Shown here one piece after another: positions 39,224 to 61,853 of a stretch of DNA of 64,000 nt; within the stretch, counting starts at the first letter, position 1; each line of letters starts with the position of its first letter. Origin of the DNA: Terebella lapidaria (taxonomy: Eukaryota > Annelida > Polychaeta > Terebellida > Terebellidae); assembly GCA_949152475.1 (NCBI GenBank), contig OX424566.1, forward strand, positions 15,523,177-15,587,176. Direction: 5' to 3'. The notes under the pieces were generated by a model, which saw only the letters and a list, made by a program, of their open reading frames with translations, was not told the DNA's origin and ran no database searches. The position numbers and the translations under genes were made by a program.

Positions 39224-39748
39224 TTACTCTGGCTTCGACTTGTGAACTGCCGCGTAGAGGTCGCCCTCTGGTCCCACATAATGCTCTGTGCCGTTGCTCC
39301 TCTCCTCTCGATTGCCAGACACTGGCGCCGATATATCTCCGTCTGGGGAATAACCCTTCTTCTTCCGCGGTTTTTTCGCGATTTTCGGTTTCATTTTCGG
39401 AGCCCGTTCTTCCATGGACCTCAGGGCAGCCTCACTGGTGCCCCACAATCCTGAGTCGTCGTACATCGTGTTGTCAAACATCATGACACAATCATCGGAT
39501 TCCACGGGTGTATTTGAGCAAGCGCCTTCCATTGATTGAGCTCCTGAAGCATTCTCGAGCGAATACTCTGCCACAGTATTGCGCTCCAGTGAGTAGGTGA
39601 CGCTATTCGCTGGTTGGCTGATCTGTTGCAGTGGCCTTGACCTTGGCATAGATCGTGACTTGTGATAGGTCACCCGGGACCGGGAGGTGGAAGGGGCGCT
39701 ACTCGGCAAACTTGGCCTGGCTGCATTCAGTCTTGGCGTCATCGGTGG
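39224..39748 (-). CDS. Gene 1 last exon: long cytoplasmic tail
   Basis: The acceptor TTATACAG precedes PPMTPRLNAARPSL, in phase 0 with the previous exon, and gives 174 residues to the TAA at 39224-39226. The tail is Ser/Pro/Arg-rich at first, with tyrosines in VTYSLE, AEYSLE, TMYDDSG and EHYVGP. A lysine-rich patch (KMKPKIAKKPRKKK) precedes a C-terminal DLYAAV, which fits the YxxPhi sorting motif. The preceding exon (39955-39873) adds SSYSNV, which matches the ITIM consensus [SIVL]xYxx[ILV], and a proline run (RPAPPP). This tail has no visible relation to the tail exon of genes 2 and 3. Confidence 0.8.
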   Translation of the reverse strand, partial: PPMTPRLNAARPSLPSSAPSTSRSRVTYHKSRSMPRSRPLQQISQPANSVTYSLERNTVAEYSLENASGAQSMEGACSNTPVESDDCVMMFDNTMYDDSGLWGTSEAALRSMEERAPKMKPKIAKKPRKKKGYSPDGDISAPVSGNREERSNGTEHYVGPEGDLYAAVHKSKPE

Positions 39749-42700
39749 CTGTATAACATAATACAGATTGATGAAAACACCTACCAAGAACAAATTTTCT
39801 GCATTTTGGATAGTGAATAATGGTTGGCGTGCCCTTTAAGTTTCCACGGTCACACACCCCTGATCCACATACAACGTTCGAGTAGCTGGAGTCGGGTTCA
39901 TTGTTCGGTGGCGGGGCAGGGCGTGAGGGGTTATGATATTGACGTGCTATACTTCCTGTGAGGGAAATAGAGAGAGATATTGAGAGATAATAGGACAGTC
40001 ACATGGTCCGGCCCAGCAAATTCCCTATATTGACTCTAAAATAAGTCTACATTTGTTGTATTTCTTTCAAATGAGCTTTATTAATGAGCACGTGTTCCTT
40101 GAATATGTTTGAACAACTGAAAGTACATGATAAATTGTTAATATTCACCAGGAAGAATACCATCGCTAATCTTCAGATAGCCTTTCTTCTGTAGAAGAAC
40201 CAGCCTGGAGATAATGAATAAATGTATTCAATACATGCATATATTCAAGAGTATCGTCGAAAGTAAGTTTCACTGTGCATGATTACAAAAAATGGGAGTG
40301 TTTCACGAAAGTAAGGTTATGAGTAGATCTGGCAAAATCCCAATGGCTCTGGGTAATGATATATGTCCTTCCTGGTCGTCATCGAAATTGGTTGTCACTA
40401 AGAATAATAACTAGCAATTACCATCGTAGAGTGGAATATTATATTAGGTATAACGGGCTTACTCACAGTGCAGCAACAGAAACGCAGATCACACACAAAG
40501 CAAGGCCCACTTTCAGTCCCACATCTGACAGGGTAGAATGATGATGTATCACAATTTACAGTCGTAGGTAATGTCTGATATACATGTATATTCATCACTA
40601 TAATGAGATAACAGGCCGAATTTTGATCTGTTTGTCTAATTCATTTCAACATTGAAATTTCGAATGATAATTACATCACGTTTATAATTGCAACTGACGA
40701 CAACACCACTTTAACAATTGTGTTACAGCAAAATTTTTGGATAAAATGCGAATTATTACAACATATGCACGTGCCAGTGATCATTACTGAGAAATTAGTT
40801 TGATTGTTTGAGGAAATTAAGTTTATTATTCGTAGGTTTATTGGACATTTTTGTTTCATGTGACCGCTGTCGAGGCTTGGCGTCGGTCTACAAAAGAACT
40901 TGAACGTATCTAGAATAACGTTATGGTATAGTATAATAGTTCAAATCTATACGAGTTTTTGTGCCGCCAAAGACACTGCCTAAATGGTTATTTGATAATA
41001 TATTCATCATTTTATAGTATTTAATATCACAAAATACTAATACAACTGAATGTTATGTTTACATATCACTATACTTTATGAATTATTCAAGTACCGATTA
41101 TACATGTATCAGTTGCCTACATTAAGCCATCTGATCAAACCATTATCTACACATGCTGGCATCACGGACTTCAGAACATTAATTGAATCACCACTCCGAA
41201 TATCCACAAGGAATATAATCATATGCAGTTCGACCTAATTTAGTATTATTTGCACTAATTGTATTAATCCAATATATTGATGATGGATGCTAATCCACCT
41301 ATTAATCGGGATTTGTTTCCAATTTCCAGTTTTTGAATCGTTTCAATATGTTGTTGGACAATTGTATATCAATTGCATCCAGTGTAACCTACAGAAGGAA
41401 TACTTCATGTATATATTCAACACACGGTCTACTCCTGATGACACAAACTCATGCGTCTTCGGCTGTAAACATTTGGTAGAGTTTGTTTTCCTTTATAATG
41501 TGTTGTATTTCAGGTTTGCTGTTACTTTGTGCTAATACTTTTCACAATACCAGATTAGGAATTTTTAGTTTGGTATGTATGGTCAAGAGTAGTTTTGCCG
41601 CTCATACCATGATCAAGACACTCACGCATTCCTTGACTCCCGTCTCCATCATGACTCCGACCTTGTTTATAACAATAAAGAATAGCCCGAGTTTATATGC
41701 GCCTTTGAATGTAAGGCTTTGAATACAACTTAAATAAGTGAATCTACGTGATTATCTGATCATGAATCATGCATATCAACCTACTGTTATTTGTGGAATT
41801 TCCATCGCCTGAAATGAACAAAACATTGAATTATCTGGGGAACGGATTGCAAGAAAAACAGCCCCCAATTCCACATCACATGCATTATCTTCTTTAATTA
41901 AGAGTAAACAAATTCCACGTTAGGAAACGTGGTTATGCTATAATAAGAAGAGACATATGGAAACCATATAATGATACATTTTATGCGGAATTTGAGCTAT
42001 TCAGTGAACAATCAGAACAAACAAACAGAGATCAGGAGATGAGCTGCGTTCAAAGAATGATTTTACCTTGACAGATAACCAGAGCTGTTGTTTGCTCACA
42101 AGTCTCCGCATGCCATGACATGTTGGTCAGGTTGAGATTCAAGCATGCCTTGTCATCGTCGCGTGCGGAGGCCAGGTTGCTTTTAAAGTAGACTACTGGG
42201 CGGTCTTCGGGCTCACTGTCGCCTGCAGGTCAACATCATGAAATAGACACTAAATTATTACAAAGCGAGTTCTATATAAACTAGACAGTACTATAAAACG
42301 CTCAAATCCCTCAACACGACACGAAAACACTCGTTTGCCACACGTATATATTTTTTCAATAATAAACGTCTATTTTCGCAACAGCCATATCAATCGAGAA
42401 GATCTGCGAGGAAATATATACGTTTGTGTAATTTTTCGTAGATTACGGGGAATTGGAATAAAATTCAGCACCGTTTTCGAGGTGAAAAAACGAAAGATTG
42501 GGGAAATCATCCGATATAAATGTAGGTGAAGTCTGAAAAGTTTAGGAACAAAAACTTATGCTTACCGATCCAGATCCAAGGTTTGTAGAATAACCCCAAC
42601 CAATATGTGCGGGAGTCCGAATCGCTGACATACTCATCCATGGTCCGGAGTCTGCCGCCTCTGTTACTGCACTTAGACTGAGCATCATACCACGTCGTAC

Positions 42701-44216
42701 CGATTTCATTGGTGGTATTAGACCCTGAAACAGAGATACATCAAATGTTCAGCCCAAATCGCTGCACTGGATCAAGGGCAATCAAACTTGATCTATGGTA
42801 TATAATTATCATACAAACTATAATTATTTTGTACCAGTACATCTGACGTATTGGCTGGACGCTACATCTGCGTTTGAAATTGTAGTAACACTTGCGGGTT
42901 CCACGAAAACAGTCGAAAACGAGTTATGCGCTGAAAATTATTGCATGCAATAAGAAATATAAATAATTGTCCCAATGATACACTGCAACAAGGTAATGTT
43001 TTTTTCCGGATATCCACCAGAATAGGCTGAACAGCCAACCTTTTGCATGCTCGATACTATCCTACATACTTTCCATATTTACTGTTACTCAGATATCTTT
43101 GAAATTTTTGAATAATATATAAACTTAGTTACCATGAAATGTATGCAATCAGTTTCTACAAATGACAGAGTGGTGAATGTTGACAACGAAACCAGTGAAA
43201 AAAATTTAGATTACTGCATACAGAGCAACTCAGCTCAAGCAGTTTTGGCACATATATGTAAATCAACGAAAAATCATAGGCTTCCATATCAATTTATCAA
43301 GTATTTAAGGTCTCATACAGCATACAGAGTAATATTCATGCACATGGACGGTATTTCCATCAAGGTATTTACTGAAGCGATCAAAAACCTGTTAAGTCGT
43401 CATTATCGTCTGGCCAATAGTCGGTAAGACTCTCGTTCACCCACGTCCATCCTTTACCGTAGTCCTTCCGTCTAGATCCCAGCCATGCTTTCCCCGTGTA
43501 CCCTAAGCCTGACAACCTAGTTTCCAGGAAATGCTGAATCTCTTGACGCTGTATAGTTAGCAGGCGCTGACTCTGACCTTTACAGGCCAGGTAACTTTGG
43601 CACCACGTGAGCGGGTCACGTGCTATGTACACGTGGTACGTTGTGTTTGTTCCAGTTTCGTTGAATGTGTCAGTAAGTTCCAGAGCAGCCTCTCTACGAG
43701 TTTCTCTGCGACATCTTTCGATTTCTCCAGGGACTACCCGTCCAGTCAGCACGAGCCACATGAAGTCTGTTGACAGAGCGTAGTGAAAGCTCAGGCAGTC
43801 ATCACGGATTTTGTGGGACCGTATATCATAAAGTGGGTCATTCAGATTGGGAAGATAAAAACTTTGCATGTTTATGGTACCACTCCGATTAAATCACCGA
43901 CAACTGGTGATTCCCCCTGGTTTTTTCACCAAAGCTATCTTTGTCAACAGCGTTGTACATCTTTGTGAACATGTCCAATTGTTGATGAAATGAAATTTGA
44001 ATATCGCCATTTTTCATATGTAGAACCCATAACCCCCAAAACTCCCGCCCCCATCAACTTTGATATGGATGCCTAGATGCACGATAGTGTCCAATATCAA
44101 AAGCTTCAGATAATGGAGATCAAATAAATGTGTTATCGCCCAGGAAGCAATTTTCGATAATAACCACATTCGATAGTATACTTACAGACTATTTTGGTTG
44201 AGTTCTTTCCAACCAT
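39224..44216 (-). CDS. Receptor gene 1: type I membrane C-type lectin-like receptor
   Basis: Nine minus-strand exons join in phase: 44216-44186, 43766-43389, 42724-42566, 42222-42067, 41808-41785, 40524-40467, 40204-40149, 39955-39873 and 39748-39224. They total 1,470 nt, or 489 residues. Residues 1-24 are a signal peptide split between exons 1 and 2 (MVGKNSTKIV then YFMWLVLTG). Residues 60-137 are the N-terminal half of a C-type lectin-like domain (WCQSYLAC, then WLGSRRKDYGKGWTW). Residues 138-242 are a complete domain (WYDAQSKC, YWLGL, WHAETC, ALVIC). A short Asn/Ser/Thr stalk follows, then a membrane helix at about 255-275 with stop-transfer QKKGYLK, then a tail of about 210 residues. No EPN/QPD or WND sugar motif is seen, so classical calcium-dependent sugar binding is doubtful. 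NxS/T sites are frequent. The microexon donor (ACA/GTAGGT) is the least certain junction. Likely a surface recognition receptor; the ligand is unknown. Confidence 0.8.
40467..40524 (-). CDS. Gene 1 transmembrane exon
   Basis: The acceptor CCCTGTCAG and donor GTGAGTAAG bound 58 nt encoding VGLKVGLALCVICVSVAA. Joined in phase to the next exon (40204-40149, LVLLQKKGYLKISDG), it makes one hydrophobic helix followed by a basic stop-transfer segment. The phase match at both junctions strongly supports the gene model. Confidence 0.8.
42067..42724 (-). CDS. Gene 1 exons 3 and 4: complete C-type lectin-like domain
   Basis: Exon 3 (42724-42566) follows CTCTGTTTCAG and encodes SNTTNEIGTTWYDAQSKC through KPWIWIG. 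Exon 4 (42222-42067) follows GACCTGCAG and encodes SEPEDRPVVYFKSNL through TALVICQ. Together they give the expected order of the fold: WxxAxxxC, a WxGL core, then the C-terminal CxxxxxxxxxxWxxxxC and a final VIC. Both exons begin and end in the same phase, so the domain can be skipped or duplicated without loss of frame. The canonical EPN/QPD and WND positions are not occupied. Confidence 0.85.
43389..43766 (-). CDS. Gene 1 exon 2: signal-peptide end and half C-type lectin-like domain
   Basis: This 378-nt exon starts after TGTCAACAG, completes the signal peptide (FMWLVLTGRVVPG) and adds a 36-residue linker with NET and NTT glycosylation sites. It then encodes only the N-terminal half of the domain: RDPLTWCQSYLAC, RLLTIQRQEI, KAWLGSRRKDYG and GWTWVNES. 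It ends LTDYWPDDNDDLTG at a GTTTTTG donor; an equivalent position is used in gene 2. The matching C-terminal half (three cysteines and a final IC) is not encoded before exon 3. Confidence 0.85.
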
Positions 44217-45182
44217 TTCAATGTCTCTCAAACGCAGATTGGCATCCGTTTTCCGATCACATTGTAGTAGCGTTTAATGCTCCAGTGCCTTCGTACAAAT
44301 CCAAGAGCACATTAGGTGTTCCAATACAACACATTGCAAGACATATCTGATCGGGGTGAGTGTTATAAAGGACTTGTGCATAATTAGCATTATATACATT
44401 CATTAAATGGAATAACATTCACGAACTAATCACACAATTTGAGCCAGATCTGTAATATGATTAAATGCCCAGCAAATTCAATTTTGACGAATTGTCCTCG
44501 TGATCGGGATACCTATTAAACGTCATATTAGTGTGACTCGTGCATCATGCATCAATTATTCCACAAAAGCGGAAGTACCGTGTACAATTTGTCAAAATTG
44601 GCGTTAATATTACTGGTGTGAGTCTAACACTTTATCACATGTATCAGATACTAATGTGTGATTGGAAACTAAATAAATACTAAATAGATAATGAATTATA
44701 AGTATATTCTTTGAAACAGTAGTGCTACAAATGAGAGGCATTTATCTCAAATTTGATGATAGGTAAACTTTAATGTCCCCCCCCCTTCCCTGGCCCAGTC
44801 GGGTAGTGATTCCCATAAGACAAGGGATACACAAGGGATACAAAAGTTAAACTCATGGATATTTATCTTGAAGACCTTAAAAAAATGTAGTGATTTTCAT
44901 CAAGCTTAAAACAATAAAGTTGAAGCACTTTTTTATTCCAAAATCTGGATGTGGTGATTAACAACTGATATGCATACATAATCATGATAATACATACATA
45001 ATGCACACATACATACACTTACAGCTATTTATATGTTATATAACCTACATGTAATACTCGGACGATATAGAGTATACATTACTGTACAAGAAAAATACAG
45101 TGAAGGAAATTGCATTATTATATAATTATATAATTGGGTGGCCAGCAACAATGGTATACTGGCCCTTTTCGATGAGTTGTTA
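44217..45182. other. 5' flank of receptor gene 1
   Basis: This includes the 5' UTR and likely promoter of gene 1. Its homologue lies upstream of gene 2. A minus-strand TTTATAA-like box near 44360 is a possible TATA element, with no further support. A short C-rich stretch lies near 44777. No other gene is seen. Confidence 0.45.
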
Positions 45183-45762
45183 TGCCCCTATTCCACACCG
45201 ACCAAGAAGCCCACGAATCGCTACGATTTGAAAATTTTTGGGATGCGTAGTTGAATCGTAAACAGTTCGTGAATTTCTCAACTGATTCGTATTTATTCGT
45301 AGTCCGTTCTTGCAATTCTTGAGCGATCGGGAATTCGTGGCCAAAGTTTTGAGCTGTTCAAAATTTTGGACACGATCTCCTGATTCCAAAATATCGTAGT
45401 TAATTCGTAACCAATTCGTAGTTCATTCTTGGGCTTCTTAGGCTTCGTAACTGAATCGTAAAGGATTCGTAGACATTCGTAGTTATACTTAAGTCATTCG
45501 TGGTTCGTGCATTCGTGGCTAGACCACGAATTGGATACGAATACTGTCACGAATCCCATGAGTACACATCTTAAATTATTCCTAACGTTCTTGCAGTATT
45601 CGTAATTGAGTCTTGAAAATTGGTGTTGATTCTTGGTAATATTTTCCGTTACTCCAGCAGAATCCCACGAATAGTCATAATGCTATCGTACCTGTGTCGT
45701 AACAGAATCGTAGAGCGTCACGAATGGGACAAGGGATTCGTGGTCGGTGTGGAATAGGGGCA
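45183..45762. mobile_element. 580-bp MITE with 22-bp perfect terminal inverted repeats
   Basis: The left end TGCCCCTATTCCACACCGAC is exactly inverted at the right end. Flanks read TTA (45180-45182) and TCA (45763-45765), compatible with a 3-bp PIF/Harbinger-type duplication with one change. The interior is rich in degenerate TTCGTGG and TTCGTAG motifs. The homologous position near 58460 in unit B lacks the element, so the insertion postdates the duplication or occurred in one copy only. No transposase is encoded. Confidence 0.8.
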
Positions 45763-46132
45763 TCACCAAAATCGTTCATTTTCCCAATATACATACAACA
45801 ACGCTCTGAGGAACCCACATTTCATTTTGCGAGCAGTGTCATACAAAAGTATGTTCGTCGGTATTTCTGTGTGCTCAACATCAAAACGCGCCAGCATGGA
45901 GCCCTTATGGAATGCGAAGTAACATCCAACTAGTGTTACCAGCCAAATATAGATCAGCGTGGCACTCTGATGGCTAAGTATTGTGTTTGTTCCTGTGTTA
46001 TAATTCACTTTCCATTTTTGATGAAAAATCTTTTCATTCATTAGGTAATTATGTACACAATTATATGACAAACGTGACGTCATTGATTTTCCTATAATCA
46101 ATTTTCCTGTTATGATTCAATTCAATTATTAC

Positions 46133-46426
46133 CTAATTTTTACTCAGAGTACACGTTCTGATGTCCGAACTGCTGAAACAGGTGTATGTAATGCCCACAC
46201 TGAAGTCGACATTCAAGTCACCATGATCTGATTGAAGGTTACGCCAAGCCTGTCACACATGTGATGGAATAATTGCATCATCTCACCCTAATGCATGGTT
46301 GTCGCATACGGGGTAGGAGATGTTCACCCTTCTGGAGCACCTGAGCTCACACTCAGCTGGCTGGGTGTCTGTGATGTTTACGTAGCTTTGACTTACTTTA
46401 TTATCACTTGGATTTGACCGCTCACA
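46133..46426 (-). CDS. Candidate small cysteine-rich gene (PAN/apple-like), partial
   Basis: Two exons join in phase. Exon 46426-46287 follows TTTTACAAAATCAG and ends at GG/GTGAGA. Exon 46199-46133 follows GTCGACTTCAG and ends at TAG. The product contains VNITDTQPAECELRC, NISYPVC, ITYTC and a final RTCTLSKN. The spacing of cysteines with a closing C-T-L resembles PAN/apple domains. A Kazal-like reading was also considered but its spacing fits worse. Upstream exons, including any signal peptide, are not identified; an open stretch with good splice sites (ERSVEFGGNFYELV, near 46600) is one possibility. No homologous segment exists in unit B. It could be a gene fragment or chance. Confidence 0.35.
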
Positions 46427-48645: not shown

Positions 48646-49040
48646 TTATCTCTCTTGTTCAATGACATCTGAAGCATTTGATGAAGCCCTCTATTCCAGG
48701 TAATCATGGCCAACCGCTTGTTCCTGCATGTTAATGTATATCTTGCTTTCCTGTTCTTCCTCGTGTATGATTACATTGGTAACGGTTGTTGGTCTTGCAT
48801 TCTCACTTGTGCATAGGTACTCTTCTGTTTAGGTCTCAGCAAACATGCCTGGCATCACTTCTCTTGAATCATTTACTGTCATCATTGTTTGTCCACCGTT
48901 TGAAACTGAAAATTTCCTGGAGAATACTGGTCTTGTATCTTGGAAAGCTTGGTCATACGTATCATCACGCTCCGGTAGAGATGGCCCCACACGAAGGAGT
49001 GAATTGCGTACTAATTTTGTCTCATCCAGGTCTCCATACA
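48646..49040 (-). pseudogene. Decayed remainder of the gene 2 cytoplasmic tail
   Basis: It is homologous to the last two thirds of the gene 3 tail, including YGDLDETK, DDTYDQAFQDTRP and IYINMQEQ. Against gene 3, a 1-bp loss near 49,110-49,130 takes the upstream exon out of this frame. In this frame there are also a TAA (complement of 48829-48831) replacing a CAA, and a TAG replacing the YLEM methionine codon. Those tyrosine motifs are therefore not part of a gene 2 product. Confidence 0.7.
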
Positions 49041-52000
49041 TCAATCCTGAGCAAGGTCGTGCCTGGACATCGTCCCCTGGTAAAGTTCCAGTAATGCTTC
49101 AGTCCAGGACCGTTGTTCTTTTTGTTCACACGTGTCTGGCTGCAATGTGCCTGGCTTGTGTGACATCTTTTGTTCCTTCCTTGCAATTGTGTATTTTTTC
49201 GTCTGGCACTTCCGGGCACACCTTCAGAAACCATATGAATATATCGCAAAAATATTGAAAATGTGTACGATATGCAATTTTAAAACACCATGCTGCTTCA
49301 CATGCATACAACAGTGTAACAGACTAGAATTAATAATAATAGTGTCCTTCAAACTTTGCCCAAGTGTACAGTGTTCATAATATTCATTTCTCCCAGCCTA
49401 CCCCAATCTTACCTCGTTATCATTGCAAGTGCATACAGTATACTACTTCCGGCAGCAATAAGGAGGATAACCCTGATTTGGAGCACCAGATGTCTGTTCA
49501 GCTACACAGCAACTTTGTGCATAAAATTAGCCCAAGGGCTAGGAAAGGCTACCGGAGAATACATAGTTGCTGTTTTGATCATCACAGCTCAAATTCAAGG
49601 TCACTACTGAAACCACCATCTATGGTTTCCTATTTTGATTAGCCAATATTCGTGTGTGTTTTTCTTGAAGAATTCTATAAGTTTACTCCACCAAGCTCTC
49701 ATTATGAAGAAAAAATTAGACGAAATTTTATATAAAAAAAAACAAAAATAAAATTTTTGTTGGGACAATTTTTTTTACCAATTTATTTCTGTTGCTGGAT
49801 AATGCTCAAAAAAGGGGTGGTTCGATTTCTGCTTAGACCGACACTTCAAAAGCAATGTTCTAGTACACATCACAAGGGGACATATGGGGACTTGATTTGG
49901 GTCCAAATTTTTTTCTTTGCTGACTCGCCACGAAATCAAAATGGCTGCCATGTGCAGACCGGCAAATTATGGAGGGAGGGGGGGGGGGCTGCTCAACAGA
50001 TTTCAAGAAAATAACCGGGAGAGTCATTGTTTTTGACAAGAATATTTTTGAGATAATTTTATGTATGGTCAAGGGTATTCTCTCCCGTTTACGTCATGAT
50101 CAAAACACTCACTCATTTATCAACTTTTATCACACAATATAAAGTATAATGCTACATTACTCAAAAAGGTGTGATACCTTTTTTCTGTATCACCCTACTT
50201 CAAATTGTTCTGTATTACTCGCTGAGCGACATCGGGCCAAAACTACATTTTTACTGTGGATTACGTGAAGATCTAGCATTATGTCTGAACAGTTGTGTGT
50301 GATAAAATAAAAACCACGCTCGTGTGTTTTCCGCAAAAAAAATATCGGTCTCGTTTGGTCTGGTGGATGAACACAGAATACACTCATAGCTACTCGTCCT
50401 TCGGACTCATGCATCCTGATTCCATCCGCTAGACCAAACTCGACCGATATCTTTTTGCGGAAAACACATTCGCATGTTTTTATATATATGCACCTTTGAA
50501 TGTAAGACTTTGAATACAACTTGAATAAGTGAATCTTAGTTGATGTCCAATAATGAACCATGCATATCGACCTACTTGTATTTGTGGAATTCGCCTGAAA
50601 AAACCAAGACATTGAATTATCTGGGAAACAATGACTTCATTCATGTTAATAACAGAACAACAGTCAAGTCCAATTCCACCCCCCCCCCCCCCCCATGCAT
50701 TAACTTTGAGAATGAGGAGTAAGAGTAACCAAAATCGACGCTTAGCCTAAGAAACTTCAGTTATGCTATAATAAATATAGACATAATAATGATACTTTAT
50801 ATGGGTATGGGGTTGGTATTTCAGTGAGCAATCAGAACAAACACACACAGATCATGAGATGGGCTGTGTTCAAAGAATAATTTACCTTCACAGATAACTA
50901 GAGGTGTTGATCGCTCACAAATCTCTGCATGCCATGACATGTCGGTCAGGTTGAGACTCAGACATGCCTTGTCATCGTCGCGTGCAGATGGCAGGTTGCT
51001 TTCGAAATAGATTACTGGACGGTCTTCGTGCTCGGTGTCACCTGCAGGTCACATCATAGAGCATGTTTCTTTTGTTTCATAGAGGGCCCTATTTTACGTT
51101 ACCGGACCTATGGTCAGATAACCTATTGCCATGGCGTTGTGTCCACCGTCCGTCAATTTTTTTATCTTTGAAGTTTACAGTCAAATCTTTCTGAAATTTT
51201 GCACAAGAATGCCTAAAAATATTTCAAGATTGAGTTATTTTTTTTATTTTTTTTTTATTTTAGCATTTTTTCTCACAAAAAGGCAGCCATTTTTGACGGA
51301 AACTGGCCAATTTTTTAATTTAGGCAGTCATTTTCTCAAAACCTGTTCAGTAACTTTTTCTTATTGATCCAAACTGGGCCTGAATGGGACTTTCCCATGT
51401 TAAATTTCTCCTATGCTCTATAATGGGACACATTTTAGACAATTTTTGGACTTTGACAGTTTTCTCAAAATCTGTTCAGTAACCTCTTTTATTGACGCAT
51501 CGAAATGCGCCATTTTGGGCTCGAAATCAGCCCAAATGGGACTTTCCCATGGTAATTTCTCTATGCTTCATAATGGGGAACATTTTTTCAAATATCTCAA
51601 TTAATATTGAGATTAGAGATTAGGAATCAATTGTGGACATATAGACAATGATATATGCTGAATAATCTCATGACCTTGACTTTGACCTTTGTCCTCATTT
51701 TCAAGGTCACAGGACAAAATGGCTAATATCTCGCTTATTATCGTTTTTACAGCTTAGGAATCAAATGTCAACATATAGGAAATGATAAATTCTTAATATT
51801 ATCGTGGCCTTGAGTTTGACCTTTGACCTAATTTTCAAGGTCACATGACATAATGAATATATCTCGCTTATTATCGATTTTACAGTTAAGGAATCAATTA
51901 TGAACATATAGGAAATGATATATACAGATTATTCTTGTGACATTGAATTTGACATAACTAACATAATTACACCGATTATTTAATTTTGTCCCTGGATTTT

Positions 52001-55000
52001 GAGTTTAGTCTTGCGGATTATTTGGTGTTTGGTATCACACTTGTCTCTGACCTAAATTTCAAGGTCATATGACAAAATGACTAATATCTCACTTAATATC
52101 GACTTTACACGTAAAAAATGATGTATGCTGAACTTTGCCATGACCTTGAAATCGACCTTTGACCTCATTTTCAAGGCCCCATTACGAGAATGAAAAAATA
52201 GAAAAAAAAACATTTAGGGTATCACGCAACTACCTGAATGACTGTATATAATTTTTCCATAATAAACGCCTATTTTCCAAACAGCCACTTCATTCAGGAA
52301 GATCATTGAAAAAATATACTTTTGTGTTATTTTCATTAATTACAGCAACTGGGATACATTCAGCACTGTTTTTCGAAGTGAAAAAAAACAACGATTGATT
52401 AATATCATTTGATATCTATGCAGGTTAAGTCTGAAATGATTAGGAACAAACACTTATTTATGATGTGCGCTTCTAGATAAATGAGTGTTTACCGATCCAG
52501 ATCCACGGCTTGTAGAATAACCCCAACCAATATGTGTGGGAGTCCGAGTCGCTGACATACTCATCCATGGTCCGGAGTCTGCCGCCTCCGTCACTGCACT
52601 TAGACTGCGCATCATACCACGTCGTACTGATGTCATCAATGTTATTGGACCCTGATCAGAGTTACAAAAAAATATTTTGTCATGAATTTTGATCAGGACA
52701 AGGTTTGATATTGATCTATAGTTCATATAAATTACCTCCTTCAGCACCAGTACATCCGGTGTATACACTGGGCAAATTTTCGTTCATATAATTTGCGCCG
52801 CATTGCCAGGTTTCAGGAAGACGTTCGAATATGGGTTACTTGCTGAAAAGAAACCCATAACTGTACAGAGGTACATAACTACAGTACATAACTGTACAGA
52901 AGGTAAGTAAAAATGTCCTTGATGTTCACCATGCTGAGTTCATGTGAGTATTTTCATTCACAATGAGGGTGAGATAGAAAATAAGGAACTTTTTATGTAT
53001 TCCTATTGGGGGTGAGTGGTTGATGATAAACAGCTAACTTCTCGCAGGATTGATTAGATACTAACTCTACATACGTTCGACATTTGATGCTACACATATT
53101 TATCTTAAGTAGGCCCAAAATGTGTCGGTTATTTCTGAGCTTTCAATGGATATATACTTTATAACTAAATGACATTATCTGATTGTTTATGATGAGACTA
53201 ATTAAAAATTAACCCAAGAGCTGGATAGATTACCGGAGAAATATTTAGTGTTAAACTAAAACTTTTTTCATCAAAATTGCCGCATTGACCTCTCAAGGTA
53301 ATTAAAAGTTAAACTTATGGTCATCAATAAATGTACAATAGATGATTTCTCATTTGATACTGCCATTATTTAAGATCTATCTTGAAATGTTATAGGAGTT
53401 TACTCCATACAGCTCCCATTATGAAGGAGAAATGAGGTAAAAGGTCAAATTCAAGGTCACAACAATATTCACTATATATTATTTCATCAGGTCACAATTG
53501 ATTCCTGAGGCATAAAGTTGATAACAAAGAGATTAGTTATTTTGTGCTTCGACCTTGAAAATAAGATCGAAGGTCAAGTTCAAGGACATGAGAATATTCA
53601 GCTTATATCATTTCCTATATGTACACAATCTATTACCTAACCGTAAAATCGATAATAAACAAGATATTTGTCCTTTTGTGCTCTGACCTTGAAAATAAAT
53701 CAAAGGTCAAGTTCAAGGTCATGACAATATTCAGCATGTATCATTTCCTTTGCGTTCACAATTGATTCCAGAGCTGTAAAGTCAACAATAAGCGGGGTTA
53801 TTAGCCATTCTGAGTTCTGGCCTTGAAAATGAGGTCAAAGGTCAAGTTCAAGATCATGACAATATTCAGCGTATCAATTGCTCTACGTTCATAATAACCA
53901 ATAGCTATGCACTCATGATAATAAGCAAAATAATAATCAATTTGTGCTTTGACCTTGATAATGAGGTCAATGGTCAAATTCAAGTTCTTCAGAGTATTTG
54001 GTATACATCATTTCCTATATGTTCGGAATTGATTCCTGCAAAGCTGCAAAGTAGGTAATAGGGCACAGGAGTCATATTTAAAACGTCACGTTCTTTTGCG
54101 TTATTTCGTCATTTTGGAGACACACAACTTCCCCGCCAAATTTTCTGAAAAATTGTGAATATTGTAATTGTTCAGTTCCAAATAATATCAACGTAAATCA
54201 ACGGAAATTCATCGGAATTTTATATTACCATTTTTGACACATTACAACCGCTATCAGATCGATGAATGTATTATTCCTCGTATATTTCCTACCGATTGAA
54301 GAGCTTGAATAATCCATGTTTCTGGGCATTTGAGCCGCGATCTTTACGCCGGAAAATGTTCCAAGGCTTTTAAATTGAGTCGAACATATATTTTCTTTTC
54401 GTGTTTCGAGTAACTACACAAGAGGAGAGACATATTTTGTCCTATTTCAAGTTTAAAATAACAAATATTTGTGTTATAATCGAATTTGTGCCTCAGAAAT
54501 GCACTCTCAAACATAACTTGAACAGGGCGCATTTTCAGTTTGAAAAATACACCTGATTTTGTGTAAATTGTGTAAGTAAATAACTCGGAGTACTTTCATT
54601 ACATTCAAGAATGAGCTAGGAATATATCTCCGAAATTTTTAAATTTTGTTGTACGGTATTTGTGAATTCAAGCTAAATCAGCAAAAGTGACAACGTGGCA
54701 AGCCTTGTCCCCGGAAGTACATAATTGCGTCATGAATGTGTAATTTTTGGACACATGTGGAACGAGACTTCGGTGCCCTATAAGCGATGTCAGGTGTTCT
54801 GACCTTGAAAATAAGTTCAAAGGTCAAGTTCAATGTCATGAGAATACTCAGCATATAAATTATCATTTCATTTAAGCTCACTTTTGGGTCTTAAGCTGTA
54901 AAATCGATAATAAGCGAGACATTTTGTACTCTGATCTTGAAAATGAGGTCAAAGGTCAAATTCAAGGTCATGACAATATTCAGCATTTATCATTTCCTAT

Positions 55001-56366
55001 ATGTCAGCAATTGATTCACAAGCTCAAGATTCAGCACTAGATTCACAAATTGATATTAGGTCGACAATAAACAAGATATTAGCCATTTTGTGCTATGACC
55101 TGGAAAACGAGGTCAAAAGTCAAATTCAAGGTCATGACCATTATCACCATATGTCTTTTCCTATGTGTCCACAATTGGTTCCTAGTCTCTAATCTCAATA
55201 TTGAGTGAGATATTAGGCATGATGTGTGCCAATATAAAGCATAGGAGTATTTAACATGGGAAAGTCCCACTTGGGACCAGTCGAGAAAATGAAAAAGGCT
55301 GCGACGAGCAGAAAATGAAAAAGGCTCCGAAACTTATACACACCACAGAGGTATTGAAGCAAAGATTTTAAAACTGTCTGAACAGTTTTTGAGAAAATGG
55401 CGTTAAAATGGCCGCCACTTCAAAAAAAATCCGAAATTCAAAAAACAAAAAATACCCCCTTTTCAAAATATTTTTAGACATTTTTGTGCAAAATTTCAAA
55501 AAAGATAACCCGTAAACTTTAAAGATAAAAATATGGATGGACGCTAATGCCGACAAATAGAATTCAAGTATTGAATGTTTCAAATAATATTATATAGAAA
55601 TATTCTATAGCCACACGAATGGACTTTTCAAAAGTTATCAAATGAATGGATTTCAAACCTGTCAGCTGTCTACAGATATGTTGTTGACAATCGGTGAGAC
55701 TCTCGTTCACCCACGTCCATCCTTCACCATAGTCCTTCCGTCTAGATCCCAGCCATGCTTTCCCCGAGTTCCTCGGGCCTGCCAGCCTAGTCCCCAGGAA
55801 ATGCTGGATCTCTTGACGCTCTATAGTCAGCAGGCGCTGGCCTTGACTTATACAGGCCTGGTAACTTTGACACCACGTGAGGGGGTCATGTGCTTTGTAC
55901 ACGTTGTACATTGTGTTTGTTCCAGTTTCGTTGAACTTATCAAAAAGTTCCAGAGTAGCATCTCGAGGGCTTTTTCCACGACATATTTCAATGGTTTCAC
56001 TGATTACTCGTCCAGTCAGCACAAGCCACACCAAGTCTTTTGACAGAGCAAATGTGAAAAGACAAGCACTCATCACAAATTTTGTGAGATTGTAGGTTAT
56101 AAAAGGAGCGTTATATATCTTTGTAAAAATGTCCAATTGTTGAATATTCAGGTAGAGATATGAAATTTGGATATCATTTTTTTCATATGGAGAGCTTGAG
56201 TCCCAAAAAAAAAACCCGCCCCTTCATCTATGAAATGGACGCCTAAATGCATAAGAGCATCTAATATCAATCAAAAATTCAGATAATTTTTTTGACACCT
56301 ATTTTGACAGTAACCACAATCGCTAGTATACTTACAGAGAATTTTGGTTAAGTTCTTTCGAACCAT
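49041..56366 (-). CDS. Receptor gene 2: C-type lectin-like receptor with truncated tail
   Basis: Exons: 56366-56336, 56036-55659, 52651-52493, 51041-50886, 50594-50576 (tentative), 49472-49413 and 49221-49041. They total 984 nt, or 327 residues. The signal peptide is split as in gene 1 (MVRKNLTKIL then YLVWLVLTG). The half domain has WCQSYQAC and WLGSRRKDYGEGWTW. The full domain has WYDAQSKC, YWLGLFY, WHAEIC and PLVICEG. The membrane helix is ILLIAAGSSILYALAMIT and differs from gene 1. After the basic segment CARKCQTKKYTIARK a frameshift relative to gene 3 leads to TGA at 49041-49043. The resulting tail is about 60 residues and has no ITIM or YxxM site. The 19-nt microexon is 5 bp shorter than in gene 1, but the frame still closes with the GTAGGT donor. 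It could be a weakly signalling or decoy form, or an early pseudogene. Confidence 0.65.
49413..49472 (-). CDS. Gene 2 transmembrane exon
   Basis: A 60-nt exon between CTCCAAATCAG and GTAAGATT encodes VILLIAAGSSILYALAMIT. It is homologous to the gene 3 exon at 61319-61260 and starts and ends in the same phase. It is not homologous to the gene 1 transmembrane exon. Confidence 0.75.
50679..50694. repeat. Poly-C tract (16)
   Basis: A run of 16 C in the intron upstream of the gene 2 microexon. The homologous position in gene 1 (near 41865) has only five C. Confidence 0.85.
50886..52651 (-). CDS. Gene 2 exons 3 and 4: complete C-type lectin-like domain
   Basis: Exon 3 (52651-52493) and exon 4 (51041-50886) have the same lengths and phases as in gene 1 and are open. 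Differences from gene 1 are scattered substitutions (for example SDGGGRLRT for SNRGGRLRT, LVICEG for LVICQG). The intron between them has gained a block of repeats at 51.1-52.2 kb. Confidence 0.85.
51131..51600 (+). repeat. AT-rich repeat block, left arm of a spaced inverted pair
   Basis: TTTTTTTATCTTTGAAGTTTAC, then GAAATTTTGCACAA and CTAAAAATATTT, recur in inverse orientation at 55,300-55,555. The block contains long T runs and short internal repeats (CTGTTCAGTAAC twice, GGGACTTTCCCATG twice). Its inverse lies on the other side of gene 2 exon 3. Confidence 0.65.
51605..52195 (+). repeat. Tandem repeat, about 140 bp, with nuclear-receptor half-sites
   Basis: About four degenerate units of the pattern TGACCTTTGACCT, then CATTTTCAAGGTCA, then AATATCTCGCTTATTATCG. 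One perfect DR1 element lies at 51817-51829 (TGACCTTTGACCT), and two further one-mismatch versions lie near 51681 and 52153. The block is in the intron between gene 2 exons 3 and 4. Confidence 0.7.
53400..55210 (-). repeat. Tandem repeat, about 140 bp, with DR1 motifs, inverse block
   Basis: About a dozen degenerate units read AGGTCAAAGGTCA, AGTTCAAGGTCATGAC, AATATTCAGC, ATTTCCTATATGT, AATTGATTCC and GATAATAAGCGAGAT. Perfect DR1 elements (two AGGTCA separated by one base) lie at 53832-53844 and 54946-54958; others have one mismatch. Unit integrity is broken at about 54,050-54,780 by unrelated AT-rich sequence. It lies in the intron between gene 2 exons 2 and 3. Confidence 0.7.
55230..55560 (-). 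repeat. AT-rich repeat block, right arm of the inverted pair
   Basis: Inverse copy of the block at 51131-51600. Together with the adjoining tandem units it forms one composite family present twice in opposite orientation around gene 2 exon 3. Confidence 0.65.
55659..56036 (-). CDS. Gene 2 exon 2: signal-peptide end and half C-type lectin-like domain
   Basis: The exon is 378 nt, exactly as in gene 1, fully open, with acceptor TGTCAAAAG and donor ACAG/GTTTGA. It encodes VWLVLTGRVISE, HDPLTWCQSYQAC, RLLTIERQEIQHFLGTRL and WLGSRRKDYGEGWTW. It ends LTDCQQHICRQLTG, where gene 1 has an acidic segment. As in gene 1, only the N-terminal half of the fold is present. Confidence 0.85.
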
Positions 56367-56510
56367 TTCAAATGTCCCTCAGACACTGACGGCATCCGTT
56401 TTTTTTTCACAAAGCAGTAGTTGTCCAATTCTCCGAACAGCACAGAAACCAAGACCTACTCCACAACCCATTACAAGGAACATCTGATCGGGGTGAGTGT
56501 TGTAAATGAC

Positions 56511-57741
56511 GCGTAAATCGTGAGTATTATGCGTTATTCGTGAGGAAATTGCACAGGAAACGACATAGGTCCCCACTTCAAATGATGTGAGGTCGTGAAA
56601 AAGTTCAATTTCTTCCTAAAATTTTGTTTCCACGAAACATCCCAATGAGCAAACATCACGTATGCTACTATTATTACTTGCATACATCGTTATATTTACG
56701 AAAATGGACACACAGTTCAACACCCGCACGCTTGCGACTCGTTTGTGAAGTATCATCGGCTATCAATTGAAACCAACAAAGTGCATGTTGGTAAATCATA
56801 GAATGCTCACAGAAATCTTTCTTTATTGTTACACCATGCAACCAGTTGTTTTTATCGAGTATTTTATGAAATGAGAAGCTTTTTATGGTTTACGCGTATC
56901 AGCCTGAGAGAGAAATTCTACACACGCGTTACAGCATGAGGAAACATATGAGCGTTGTCGGGGATGGTAGAGGTGGCAATTCATACATAGATATTTTTAA
57001 AGTATGATTTGAGGCTGCACATGTTCCAAGTACTGACGACACTTTTCATTTATCATTATCCTCCATATGTTCCTCCCAATCTTCATAAATCTGAAATTGA
57101 CAATACTAAGATCTTCTCGTGTCTTTTACACAAAAGCTCACCGAGTGAAAGCATTATCTCTTGAACTTGAATTTATCTCATCAATTGAGCAGTAAAATTG
57201 GAGAAAAATTCGCATTAAAAAAAAGAAATATCTCAACCTCAACAAAATATTTACTCATGCACATGCGCGTAATGACCTCACGCAAATCGCGTAAAGTATA
57301 GCGAATAAACAAATGACATATTCAACCTAGATTCGTGGCGCTTGCGACCATTGTGAAACATTTTGAAGGCAGGCACATGTGAAGCCCATACTATCAATAT
57401 CATAGACCCCTCATTCTATCTACAATAATGCTGATATATAACATTTTTCAACCTCCAAACCGAGGAGAGCGGCTGTCGAAGCGAAATTGACAGATATTGT
57501 GCAGCCGAAGGTATCGCTACGCTGGCTTATTTATTTAATTTAAACTCTCAACAACAACCATGAATATGTGTAATGTTCCGTGCAAACCCAAATCCGACAT
57601 TTCAAAACGGTAAAATTAGCGAAATTGTATGTACTTCCTGCTAGGGGTCAACCAGAGGCTGTCATTTCCTCACGAATAACGCGTAATACTCATGATTTTA
57701 CGCGGCACTCCCTGAATAACGTGTAACGCCTAGCCACCGTG
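56511..57741. mobile_element. 1.2-kb insertion with 40-bp terminal inverted repeats, upstream of gene 2
   Basis: GCGTAAATCGTGAGTATTAT (from 56511) is inverted at 57664-57703 with about 90 percent identity over 40 bp. The homologous site upstream of gene 1 (near 44376) lacks the whole segment, which confirms an insertion. About 38 bp lie outside the right repeat, so the true right end is uncertain. No coding frame is seen, so it is non-autonomous. Confidence 0.65.
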
Positions 57742-59141
57742 GTGTGCATATTTAGCATTCTTTACATTGATTAATATGGAATTACGTTCACGAACTAACA
57801 TTACAGTAATATTACAGCTAGATCTGTAATATGATTGAGTACCTCAAGATATAAAGTAAGCATTTTATTAGTGTAACTCGTGCATCATGTATCAATTATT
57901 CCCCAAAAGCGGAAGCACAGTGTACAAGTTGTCAAAATTAGTGTCAATATTAATTAGTCTTAACACTGTATCACATGTTTCGGATATATCAATATGTGAA
58001 TAAACAAGTGAATAATTAGATAATGAATTATAGGTTCATTCTGTGAAACAATAGTGTTATAAATTAGAGGCATTCATCTCAAATTTGATGACAGGGGAAC
58101 TGTAATGTCGCCCTCCCCTCCCTGGAACCAGTCAAGTTGTGATGCCCATATTACGAGGAATACACAAGTGTTAAACTCACAGATATTTTTCTTGGAAACC
58201 TTTAAAAGGTAGTGACTTTTCATCAAGCTTTAAACAATAAAGTGAATATATTACCAGATCCAAATGTGATGATTAACGATTGGTATATAACAACTGGTAT
58301 GCATATATAACATACACATACATACATCTATATATTATAGCATATATACATGGAATACTAAAAAATTATAGATTATATATTACTCTACATGTAATCTACA
58401 GTAGATAAAATTATATACATGTGTGACTAGCAGCAATTATTTATTAGCCTTTTTCGATCAGTTCTCACCAAAAATTGCTCTTTTTTCCAACATACATACA
58501 ACAACGCCCTGAGGGACACACAATTTATTGTAAAATATTATTTGTATAATGTCCACTTAGTCATAGCACATCATTTGATGAGATTAAACTTGACCCACCA
58601 CATTGAAGGCTAAATCACGAGGTCAATCCTCACCGGAAATGTGTAAATTGGCATCTACAGACAGAATGTTTGTAGATACATGTAGAGCTATTGTTTGTAC
58701 AAGTAAAAAGACATGCAGCACACCTATAGGTGACATTGAAGTTGACAATGATGACATTGACTGGCAAGTCTTATCACCTGCAATGCTTAAAACCAAGATA
58801 GTCCTGTAATCTTAGCCCTTTGGATATTTTTTCCTAGGTAAAACGTTTTATTTTTTCCTAAAACTATTAAAAAACAGGATTATGTAACTGTAATTAAAAG
58901 TTAAATAACGAAATGGGGGAAAAATAGAAGTTTTTGCATAAGAACCGAAACTATTGAAAAATATCATTACAATTTTCCATACTTCAACAACTCAGTTTTT
59001 CAGCGTTATATTCTTTAATACTAAATCTCACACTTAGTCGTTCACGAAATCGAATGACTCGTTCATCGGTTTCATCGCATAATCAATCCAGACAACAAAA
59101 GGACCACATACAGGGAGACAAACTATCAATGTGATATAGTA
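57742..59141. other. Upstream flank of gene 2, homologous to 44.4-47.6 kb
   Basis: It matches the region upstream of gene 1, but lacks the 580-bp MITE and the segment at about 45,850-47,110 that holds the cysteine-rich candidate gene. No gene is recognised. Confidence 0.55.
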
Positions 59142-59544
59142 TGATTTGATTTGATTCTTTATTTTGAATCATTTATTAGAGTGACCAAGGCACACACAAA
59201 TTCAATAACAATATAACAATTCAATACATTTGATACCTCCAGCCACAGAGGGCTAATTAGTCACTATAAAAACACGTGTATATAGACATGGTGAAGATAA
59301 AAGCACAAAATTGAAAATAAATCACTACAAATATATGATATTCTATTGATATAAAATGGATTTACGGTGTTCCAATGAATCACAGAGATATATGGCTAAA
59401 AAAATTTGACATTTTTTAACAATATTTACGAACTTATCATGATCATCATTTTACTCAAAATTTGGCAAACTATTTTTAACACAATTATACAATGTAGATC
59501 TGAAGGTTGCATAAGCGGGACAAGATATTACCAAATGAAATTTA
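59142..59544 (-). mobile_element. 5'-truncated LINE, 3' end only
   Basis: A 403-bp insertion with 6-bp target duplication ATAGTA (59136-59141 and 59545-59550). The unoccupied site is present once at 47597-47602. On the minus strand it starts inside a reading frame, KFHLVISCPAYATFRSTLYN, ending at TAA (59451-59453). That resembles the C-terminal end of CR1/L2/Jockey-type reverse transcriptase proteins (HLxxxCPxYxxxRxxLY). A 3' UTR follows with AATAAA and a terminal AATCAAATCAAATCA repeat, as in many such LINEs. The exact clade is not determined. Confidence 0.75.
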
Positions 59545-59550
59545 ATAGTA

Positions 59551-60503
59551 TATCGACTGTATCTTCGCAATATATAATGACTTCCGACTCTTTCACATTT
59601 CCCAGTGTTGCACACAGGAGTCAACTTACACACTACAAGGAGACACCTGTCTTCCACTATGCTCTGGCATGTACTCCAACTATTTCAAATTGACTGCCTA
59701 TATTGGTTGGCAAGGTGAAACACCCCGATATGTACTCAACCAGGCAAAAATATATTATTTATCTGATGCTCTTCAATACGTTAGGTATTATATAATACAA
59801 TGTATATCTGGATACACAAAAACATTTGATACAATACGTAACCTGTATTCAGACATACATATTTTATCCATCAGCGAAACACATGAGGTTTTCAAATACC
59901 AATGTAAACTGGTGCTATTACTTCGTTCTGTGATGCAAGGATTTAACTTGACCAGAATAGCAATGAATATGGTGTTATGTGTAGATATTTACAAGCACAT
60001 CATGGCGCGAATTACTACTGTACAGTTTACAGTGAACCTGGGTATTATTGAAATTTACATTAAATCTGTGTGTCTGTACATACACATAATGATATACATG
60101 TACTTTACAACTATGTATTCCCCAGGCATAACGTTCGTGGTCAGTGGCCTTTTCTGACATGCGACTGTTCCATCGACTCAGAATGAATCAAGAGAGTTAC
60201 TCGGAGCACACTGCCCTTGCCAATTGTGCCCTTTGTTGTCAAACACTCATCATGGCAGACTTATCCCAAGTCTCTCAAACTGTTGTGAGGTATGTCTCGT
60301 TACATGTCACTTTCGCCTCATCATCCATTAAAACAGTTTGGTTTTCGATATTTGTTGTGTTTGACACGTAGTTTCATCCTCGGTATCCATCAAAACAGTT
60401 TCATCTGTATTTGACATGCTATGTGTCAGCCTATTTTCATGTTTGTTGTCAAAGAATTTTTTTTCCTTATATTTGCTTTCATTGAAAATATATTCTCTGG
60501 TTC
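59551..60503. other. 3' flank of receptor gene 3
   Basis: It is homologous to 47,603-48,645. No conserved open frame is seen. Within it the phrase AAACAGTTTGGTCTTC-like is repeated two to three times near 60,330-60,400 (and near 48,390-48,540), a short tandem duplication of about 65 bp. A polyadenylation signal was not identified with confidence. Confidence 0.5.
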
Positions 60504-61080
60504 TTATCCCTCTTGTTCAATGACATCTGAAACATTTGTTGGAGCCCCCATTTCCAGATAATCTTGGGCAACCGCTTGTTCCTGCATGTTAATGTATATC
60601 TTGCTTTCCTGTTCTTTCTCATGTATGATAACATTGGTAACGGTTGTTGGTCTTGCATTCTCACTTGTGCATAGGTACTCTACTGTTTGGGTCTCAGCAA
60701 GCATGCCTGGCATCACTTCTCTTGAATCGTTTACTGTCATCATGGTTTGTCCACCCTTAGAAACTGAAATTTTCCTGGAGAATACTGGTCTTGTATCTTC
60801 GAAAGCTTGGTCATACGTATCATCACGCTCCGGTAGAGATGGCCCCACACGAAGGAGTGAATTGCGTGCTAATTTTGTCTCATCCAGATCTTCATACATC
60901 AATCCTGAGCAAGGTCGTTCCTGGACATCGTCCCCTGGTAAAGTTCCAGTAATGCTTGAGTCCAGGACCATTGTTCTTGTTGTCCCACATATGTCTGGCT
61001 GCAATGTGCCTGGTTTTTGTGACATTTTTCGTTGCTTCCTTGCAATTGTGTCTTTTTTCGTCTGGCGTTTTCGTGCACAC
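60504..61080 (-). CDS. Gene 3 tail exon with ITIM-like and YxxM motifs
   Basis: The basic juxtamembrane segment CARKRQTKKDTIARKQRK is followed by five tyrosine contexts. LMYEDL matches the ITIM consensus [SIVL]xYxx[ILV]. DDTYDQAFED and TVEYLCT have no assigned motif. KIYINM and DYLEM are both YxxM, the PI3-kinase SH2 site, and YIN also fits the Grb2 pYxN rule, as in CD28 YMNM. The stop is TAA at 60504-60506. In the unit B copy the frame is broken. If expressed, the protein could recruit both SH2 phosphatases and PI3-kinase; this is inferred from motif consensus only. Confidence 0.75.
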
Positions 61081-61853
61081 CTTCATAAACCATATGAATA
61101 TATCAGAAAAATATTCAGAATTACAATATTGAAACACGATGCTGTTTCACATACATACAACAGTGTAACAGGCAGGAATTAATGACATTCTCCATTAGAC
61201 TTTTTCCATGTGTACAGTGTACATAATAGCTATTTCCTCCACCCCTCCCTCAATTTTACCTTGTTATCACGGCAACTGCACACAGTATACTACCTCCCGC
61301 AGCAATAAGGAGGATATCCCTGATTTGGAGCACCTGATGTTTTTCCGGCACCACGGCAACTTTGTACATAAAATTAGCGAAGGGCTATGAAAGGCAACAG
61401 GAGAATACAAAATGCTGTTTTGACATTCCATGATCATTATAGATCAAGTTCAAGGTCACTACCGAAACCACCATATATCATTTGAATGTGCCAATATTCG
61501 TGTTTCTATCTTCTTGAATAATTATATAAGTTCACTCCATCAAGCTCTGATTATGAAGAACAAATTAGATGAAAATTTTCCAAAAATTACTCCAGAATAA
61601 TTTTTGATGGGACAAATTATTTCATGGCTGAAAATGGCTCTAAACAGATAGTGATTTGATTTTTGCACAGACCGGCACTCCAAAAGCAGCGAAACTAGTA
61701 ATAGTACATATCAAAAGGAGACATATGGGGAATCAAATAATGATATTTAAGTATGACAGCTTGAATATGACAACTTGAATAAGTGATTCTAAGTGATTGT
61801 CCAATAATGAACCGAGCATATCGACCTACTGGTATTTGTGGAATTCACATTGC
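60504..61853 (-). CDS. Receptor gene 3, 3' half: stalk, transmembrane and signalling tail
   Basis: Exons 61853-61826 (tentative stalk microexon, NVNSTNTS), 61319-61260 (membrane helix ILLIAAGGSILCAVAVIT) and 61080-60504 (tail) join in phase. The extracellular exons expected above 62,077 are absent from the window. They may lie beyond a large insertion or be lost, so this is either a partial view or a truncated gene. The tail frame is fully open over 191 residues, in contrast to the decayed unit B copy, which suggests it is or recently was under selection. Confidence 0.65.

Follow-up and report, generated by a model that had tools for sequence, protein, structure and literature searches.

The window analysed here is a 64,000-nt stretch of the genome of the annelid Terebella lapidaria (contig OX424566.1, called C13 below, positions 15,523,177-15,587,176), and it holds one end of a tandem array of lectin-like receptor genes. 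We read the window together with the 212 kb beyond it, continuing its numbering past 64,000, and searched the whole genome (761.6 Mb) by position for exon and tail matches. The array contains 12 genes, all on one strand, at C13:15,562,400-15,798,310 (39,224-275,134, minus strand, in the continued numbering). From low to high coordinate, they are named k, j, i, h, g, f, e, d, c, b, a, and a0. An earlier interpretation made from the letters of the window (hereafter the sequence-only reading) had described three of them: its gene 1 is k, its gene 2 is j, and its gene 3 is i. Similar ectodomains are followed in this array by one of two unrelated sets of transmembrane (TM) and tail exons, and the two halves have been reassorted among the genes.

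The front half of the genes is uniform. In all 12, exons 1-4 measure 31 (from the ATG), 378, 159, and 156 nt, each ends in phase 1, and the splice sites are in place (GT donors on all four, AG acceptors on all but the first), so the sequence-only reading was right that genes 1 and 2 share these exons with the same lengths and phases. The ectodomain reads open in 11 of the 12 genes, the exception being d, with one TAG. Genome-wide, exon 2 has at least 19 matches, 12 of them in the array, and exons 3-4 have at least 35, of which the array accounts for 24 (two per gene). Genes i and k score 50.1 and 49.7 bits against Pfam Lectin_C (PF00059, the C-type lectin-like domain or CTLD; cut-off 22.6), each with two matching stretches, the better one at residues 146-241 (exons 3-4), and residues 57-123 of gene i have phmmer matches to CTLD receptors in PDB. 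The predicted ectodomain is half a CTLD in exon 2 plus a whole CTLD in exons 3-4, and the exon order (signal-like start, CTLD, TM, tail) indicates a type I topology. Sugar-binding C-type lectins carry calcium-site motifs, EPN or QPD, and WND; by eye, none of these strings occurs in the exon 3-4 CTLD of the translations. Between genes 1 and 2, ectodomain identity is 84% at the DNA level and 74% at the protein level, and the ratio of nonsynonymous to synonymous substitution rates (dN/dS) is 0.42-0.72 over the 15 pairs among six distinct ectodomain copies, with a value of 1.35, on 17 changes, for exons 3-4 of k and b alone.

Every array gene has its own TM exon downstream of the ectodomain. Two genes (k and c) carry module T1, which has four exons (TM1, TM1b, T1a, and T1b), and ten carry module T2, which has two (TM2 and T2). 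The exons of gene 1, with the T1 module, are as follows:

44,186-44,216, minus strand: gene 1 (k) exon 1, coding part from the ATG
43,389-43,766, minus strand: gene 1 (k) exon 2, start resembling a signal peptide, then the N-terminal half of a CTLD (phmmer on the homologous gene i)
42,566-42,724, minus strand: gene 1 (k) exon 3, N-terminal half of the second CTLD (Pfam Lectin_C together with exon 4)
42,067-42,222, minus strand: gene 1 (k) exon 4, C-terminal half of the second CTLD (Pfam Lectin_C together with exon 3)
40,467-40,524, minus strand: gene 1 (k) exon TM1 of T1, 58 of 58 nt the same in c, hydropathy peak 3.03
40,161-40,204, minus strand: gene 1 (k) exon TM1b of T1, last part of the helix followed by a QKK stop-transfer, 1 of 44 nt different from c, phase-compatible
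39,873-39,955, minus strand: gene 1 (k) tail exon T1a, putative donor at 39,873 from phase and change pattern, 83 of 83 nt the same in c
39,224-39,748, minus strand: gene 1 (k) last tail exon T1b, to the stop codon, long frame with dN/dS 0.46 (k versus c)

The T1b exon has two copies genome-wide, those of k and c, which lie in different flanks, and both T1 tails are intact. We chose its long frame because it is the only one with no stop but the terminal one in both k and c, and because of its dN/dS; a shorter reading was rejected, as the other two frames have 5-7 stops and dN/dS values of 0.91 and 3.79. A direct join of TM1 to T1a was likewise rejected once the alignment of k and c revealed exon TM1b. 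The gene 1 model of the sequence-only reading is thus amended by TM1b and T1a. It was correct that the TM and tail exons of genes 1 and 2 are unrelated.

The exons of gene 2, and the part of gene 3 that lies in the window, are as follows:

56,336-56,366, minus strand: gene 2 (j) exon 1, coding part
55,659-56,036, minus strand: gene 2 (j) exon 2
52,493-52,651, minus strand: gene 2 (j) exon 3
50,886-51,041, minus strand: gene 2 (j) exon 4
49,413-49,512, minus strand: gene 2 (j) TM2 exon, with a premature TAG at 49,502-49,504 (exon nt 9-11)
48,646-49,221, minus strand: gene 2 (j) T2 tail exon, with a 1-bp deletion at nt 95 and further stops
61,260-61,359, minus strand: gene 3 (i) TM2 exon
60,504-61,080, minus strand: gene 3 (i) intact T2 tail exon, open for 192 codons

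The ectodomain of gene 3 is outside the window, at 77,492-79,828, across a 16.1-kb intron 4. This intron contains long retroelement-like open frames on the opposite strand (64,931-75,671); the matching part of the similar gene e lacks them, and its intron 4 is 5.5 kb. Around exon 3 of gene 2 (51,531-55,275), arrays of an approximately 133-bp repeat lie on both sides in opposite orientations and might fuel rearrangement.

The state of the T2 tail varies: four of the ten are intact, four are frameshifted, one is stopped before the helix, and one is dead. The intact tails belong to a0, e, g, and i, whose protein is 466 aa. A 1-bp deletion at nt 308 shortens the product to 387 aa in a, f, and h, and a 1-bp insertion at nt 299 shortens it to 392 aa in b. 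Gene d has stops in both ectodomain and tail, and gene 2 (j) has an open ectodomain but a TAG before the membrane helix. The sequence-only reading had the second module shared by genes 2 and 3 and intact in gene 3, which holds, and truncated in gene 2, where it is not only shortened but stopped before the membrane helix. Because a, f, and h are near-identical copies, we count the deletion at nt 308 as one event; T2 tails were then disabled at least three separate times (a/f/h, b, and j) in genes with open ectodomain exons, in keeping with the earlier claim of disabled tails. In a, f, h, and b it is the last exon that holds the stop, and the expected product would be a stable but shortened receptor, whereas the stop in j lies 89 nt before the last junction, where message decay is possible. 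A T2 core of 48-51 residues can be aligned stop-free across the ten array copies, although the deletion upstream of it in j shifts it out of frame there, and the frameshifts of a, f, h, and b lie at the end of this core.

Reassortment of the two halves is most visible in gene 1, where the change occurs around one region:

41,453-42,070, no strand: intron 4 module boundary region; homology to the T2 genes b, i, and e ends at 41,453, and k is c-like below approximately 42,000 and b-like at exon 4

The BLAST match between genes 1 and 2 ends at 41,694/50,485. In 100-bp windows at 43.8-46.1 kb, k is 96-100% identical to b, while c, when alignable, reaches 57-90%; genes i and e are also close to k here (mostly >90%), and exon 2 of k is only 80-86% identical to its sisters, with b at approximately 86%. 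At exon 4, k is still nearer to b (97%) than to c (87-88%), but at 41.5-42.0 kb it is nearer to c (82-92%) than to b (66-84%) in four of five windows, and below 41.5 kb it matches only c among the seven sisters compared (71-100%, mostly >90%). Gene 1 thus reads as a mosaic, with a promoter and exon 1-2 region like that of b joined to a tail region like that of c, and with two probable levels of junction: the old boundary between T1 and T2 at about 41,453 and a younger one at about 42,000. In approximately unbiased (AU) tests, a clade of k and c is rejected whichever segment is used: p is 3.1e-5 for the 5' part, 0.022 for exons 1-2, and 3.0e-5 for exons 3-4.

The T2 genes have also been reshuffled. 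Genes a0 and d differ at only 9 of 724 ectodomain nt, yet their T2 exons are 91.0% identical: the T2 of a0 is 99.7% like that of i, and the T2 of d is 97.2% like that of b. In gene d, the pairing of ectodomain and tail spans a 13.9-kb intron that contains a second TM2 copy. AU tests reject a0+d and b+e+g+i on TM2 plus T2, and b+d and a0+e+g+i on the ectodomain (p 2.9e-5 or lower in both cases), although all the AU p values are generous because the clades were named after the identity tables were known. Since the ectodomain and tail trees reject each other's clades, the halves were reassorted by recombination or gene conversion, and this happened more than once among array members, at the DNA level. 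The sequence-only reading had proposed one ectodomain family with modules swapped by recombination around intron 4, near 41,578. That idea survives in refined form, with two junction levels and reassortment of the T2 genes added, and the proposed point falls between the two homology ends, 41,453 and 41,694.

The T2 module is also found behind a different kind of ectodomain. On another chromosome (C5), T2 relatives lie at 17,203,511, 17,211,998 (one TAA), 17,369,668 (one TAG), and 17,583,999. On the same strand as these are four immunoglobulin (Ig)-like exons, 69-100% identical, at 17,205,301, 17,213,492, 17,387,629, and 17,585,467, i.e., 0.9-1.2 kb upstream of the T2 exon in three cases and 17.5 kb in the fourth. 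In the one C5 gene that we read (L046), the Ig-like exon runs from phase 1 to phase 1, the TM exon begins in 1 and ends in 2, and phase 2 is where the tail comes in, so the splice phases match those of the lectin genes; a further exon probably lies between Ig and TM. The Ig-like exon scores 16.7 bits against Pfam ig (E 0.0092), under the cut-off of 21.8, and with phmmer it matched 66 PDB entries (best E 3.6e-4), of which the 60 listed are all Ig-domain or antibody entries by name. The tail core, YEDLDETKLAR..SL.RVGPSLPERDDTY.QAFEDTRPVF, differs little between C13 and the C5 copy read. T2 is homologous to the TM and tail exons that follow an Ig-like exon on C5. A genome-wide search found no match to the Ig-like exon on C13, and no exon 2-4 matches lie within 8 Mb of the C5 T2 genes.

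Some further observations concern these relatives. The Ig-like exon of L046 (1,845-2,261, minus strand) has a single cysteine, in GQYTC, and the usual partner cysteine is absent from the exon. Weaker matches to the T2 core occur at C15:16,394,450 (65%) and C5:17,173,630 (44%), in open frames of 348 and 284 aa, and may represent other receptors using the core. CTLD cousins at 26.4 and 43.6 Mb of C5 have no adjoining T1 or T2 match. The small contig C40 (32,394-34,320) seems to repeat a CTLD gene at C5:43.64 Mb (L036, L037), with equal scores and a shared TGA, and is perhaps a second haplotype.

As for what the tails might do, two YxxM motifs in T2 stand out against shuffling (P 0.015, uncorrected). 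Charged residues in both TM segments were seen, by eye, only near the outer edge. Between C13 and C5, the T2 dN/dS is 0.50 overall, and the core is more constrained (dN 0.15, dS 0.56).

We consider it probable that the array encodes tandem type I lectin-like receptors whose tails have been exchanged by recombination and which work in the manner of paired receptors. The ectodomain exons are in phase 1, as is the entry to either TM module, so an exchange between exon 2 and intron 4 should give an in-frame receptor. Crossing-over or gene conversion in that interval would then supply a similar binding front with another signal output, or with none. Receptors with a complete T1 or a complete T2 would differ in the signal they send, those with a truncated tail would act weakly or as decoys, and gene 2 would either yield a soluble product or be a pseudogene. 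The likeliest setting would be defence cells recognising self or microbial ligands, as in vertebrate paired receptors. A more ambitious version, possible but rather unlikely, is a combinatorial system, possibly an invertebrate one, in which a phase-1 TM and tail cassette moves between the unrelated CTLD (C13) and Ig-like (C5) folds and is reassorted within the array. Similar fronts would thereby gain full, alternative, truncated, and perhaps soluble outputs, and the system would have arisen independently, its own conserved tail core replacing the immunoreceptor tyrosine-based inhibitory and activation motifs (ITIM and ITAM).

Several results weigh against the exchange of signalling tails in paired-like receptors. 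The ITAM pattern was sought in T1 and T2 and found in neither, and ITIM-like matches occur once per tail where 0.21-0.28 are expected by shuffling (P 0.19-0.25), i.e., at chance level, which leaves an ITIM/ITAM reading of the tails unsupported. Both T2 YxxM tyrosines are replaced in the C5 copy that was read, and the first 60 codons of T2 are unconstrained between C13 and C5 (dN 0.39, dS 0.37). The ectodomain protein of gene 1 is only 74% identical to that of gene 2 (82% to its nearest sister), so their ligands may differ. To these can be added the generosity of the AU p values and the presence of near-identical tandem copies, which could be recent or could be assembly artefacts.

The last point bears on whether haplotypes or collapsed repeats have created false tandem copies and false joins. 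The positions 53,315-93,676 and 89,604-129,964 (continued numbering) form a tandem duplication with a 36,276-bp shift, 99.8% identical over 40 kb, and contig C40 appears to duplicate C5:43.6 Mb. However, there is no N across the first 264 kb joined, T1 is present in two different flanks, and k, j, c, b, and a0 are well diverged, so the reassortment of k/c and b does not depend on the near-identical copies; we therefore regard an artefact as very improbable. Exchange at the RNA level, in which neighbours share tails by read-through splicing (e.g., the gene 2 ectodomain onto the T1 of gene 1), is allowed by the single strand and compatible phases, but no gene lacks a downstream TM exon and the mosaic is in the DNA itself, which makes this explanation just as remote. 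Ordinary birth-and-death of a lectin-receptor family is a more serious rival, and a possible one, though we think it rather unlikely. On this view, one gene would have captured another tail, conversion would homogenise the ectodomain by default, and broken copies would be dying pseudogenes, with no selection for different outputs. The broken tails in 6 of 12 genes (one also with a broken ectodomain), the many near-identical duplicates, and the mild constraint on the ectodomain would all fit. This process does not so readily account for ectodomain exons that are open in all genes but one with zero length changes, for the survival of both T1 tails and four T2 tails, or for reassortment that affects T1 and T2 genes alike. 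We therefore continue to favour tail exchange among paired-receptor-like genes.

Elsewhere in the window, positions 1-32,341 consist of approximately 24.5 head-to-tail copies of a 1,321-bp unit (99.8-99.9% identical). Scanning the window, this repeat included, against Rfam at the gathering threshold and for tRNA genes gave no match. Searches for the molluscan haemocyanin domain and for MHC class I also came back empty, as they did in all 14 control genomes, so these two negatives carry no information on taxon.

What sets this array apart is that recognition and signalling halves have been reassorted among lectin-like receptors in a statistically tested, DNA-level case, with one tail common to receptors of lectin-like and Ig-like kinds. 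Should the genes be expressed in invertebrate defence cells, receptor pairing by tail exchange would have evolved independently, and the conserved T2 core would be a directly testable signalling motif. Paired receptors are clustered genes in which alike ectodomains are followed by differing TM/tail modules, which is what the array contains. As a class they also set an ITIM arm against one with an ITAM, or with a charged TM residue for an ITAM adaptor, and send opposite signals in the same cells. The arrangement in the array works like that of vertebrate paired receptors, although we do not claim membership of that class. Among the matches listed in a search of the C-type lectin literature (titles and abstract starts, outside subscription papers and preprints), none described a comparable array.

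Several known systems resemble the array in part. Vertebrate Ly49/NKR-P1 and KIR are also clustered and fast-changing, those of the natural killer gene complex (NKC) are of CTLD type, and their output is set by TM and tail, according to one account (PMC1193534). As to differences, the NKC lectin receptors (Ly49, NKR-P1) are type II with the tail at the N terminus, whereas the exon order of the array indicates type I. In the same account, lectin-like and Ig receptors sit in separate clusters (PMC1193534), whereas here lectin and Ig-like groups share a homologous TM and tail. The Botryllus fester co-receptors and Hydractinia alr are non-vertebrate multigene receptor clusters with tails varying in tyrosine motifs, and known clusters of this sort have Ig or other ectodomains; as excerpts of that work describe them, fester co-receptors combine Ig and sushi ectodomains with canonical ITIM or hemITAM (PMC12065747), unlike the CTLD and the YxxM, the only motif above chance, found here. 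The nearest documented mechanism among those compared would be that of dog CEACAM1 and CEACAM28, as set out in extracts from one paper (PMC2110893). There, gene conversion placed the 5' flank, leader, and N exon of CEACAM1 in front of a different tail to give CEACAM28, and the authors report that TM and cytoplasmic exons were exchanged together and that the tails of some relatives are prematurely stopped (PMC2110893). The dog genes have Ig ectodomains, ITIM versus ITAM tails by motif, and expression by reverse transcription PCR, whereas the annelid array has CTLDs and no established motif; shared by both are a gene cluster, a 5' part placed on another tail, and some stopped tails (PMC2110893).

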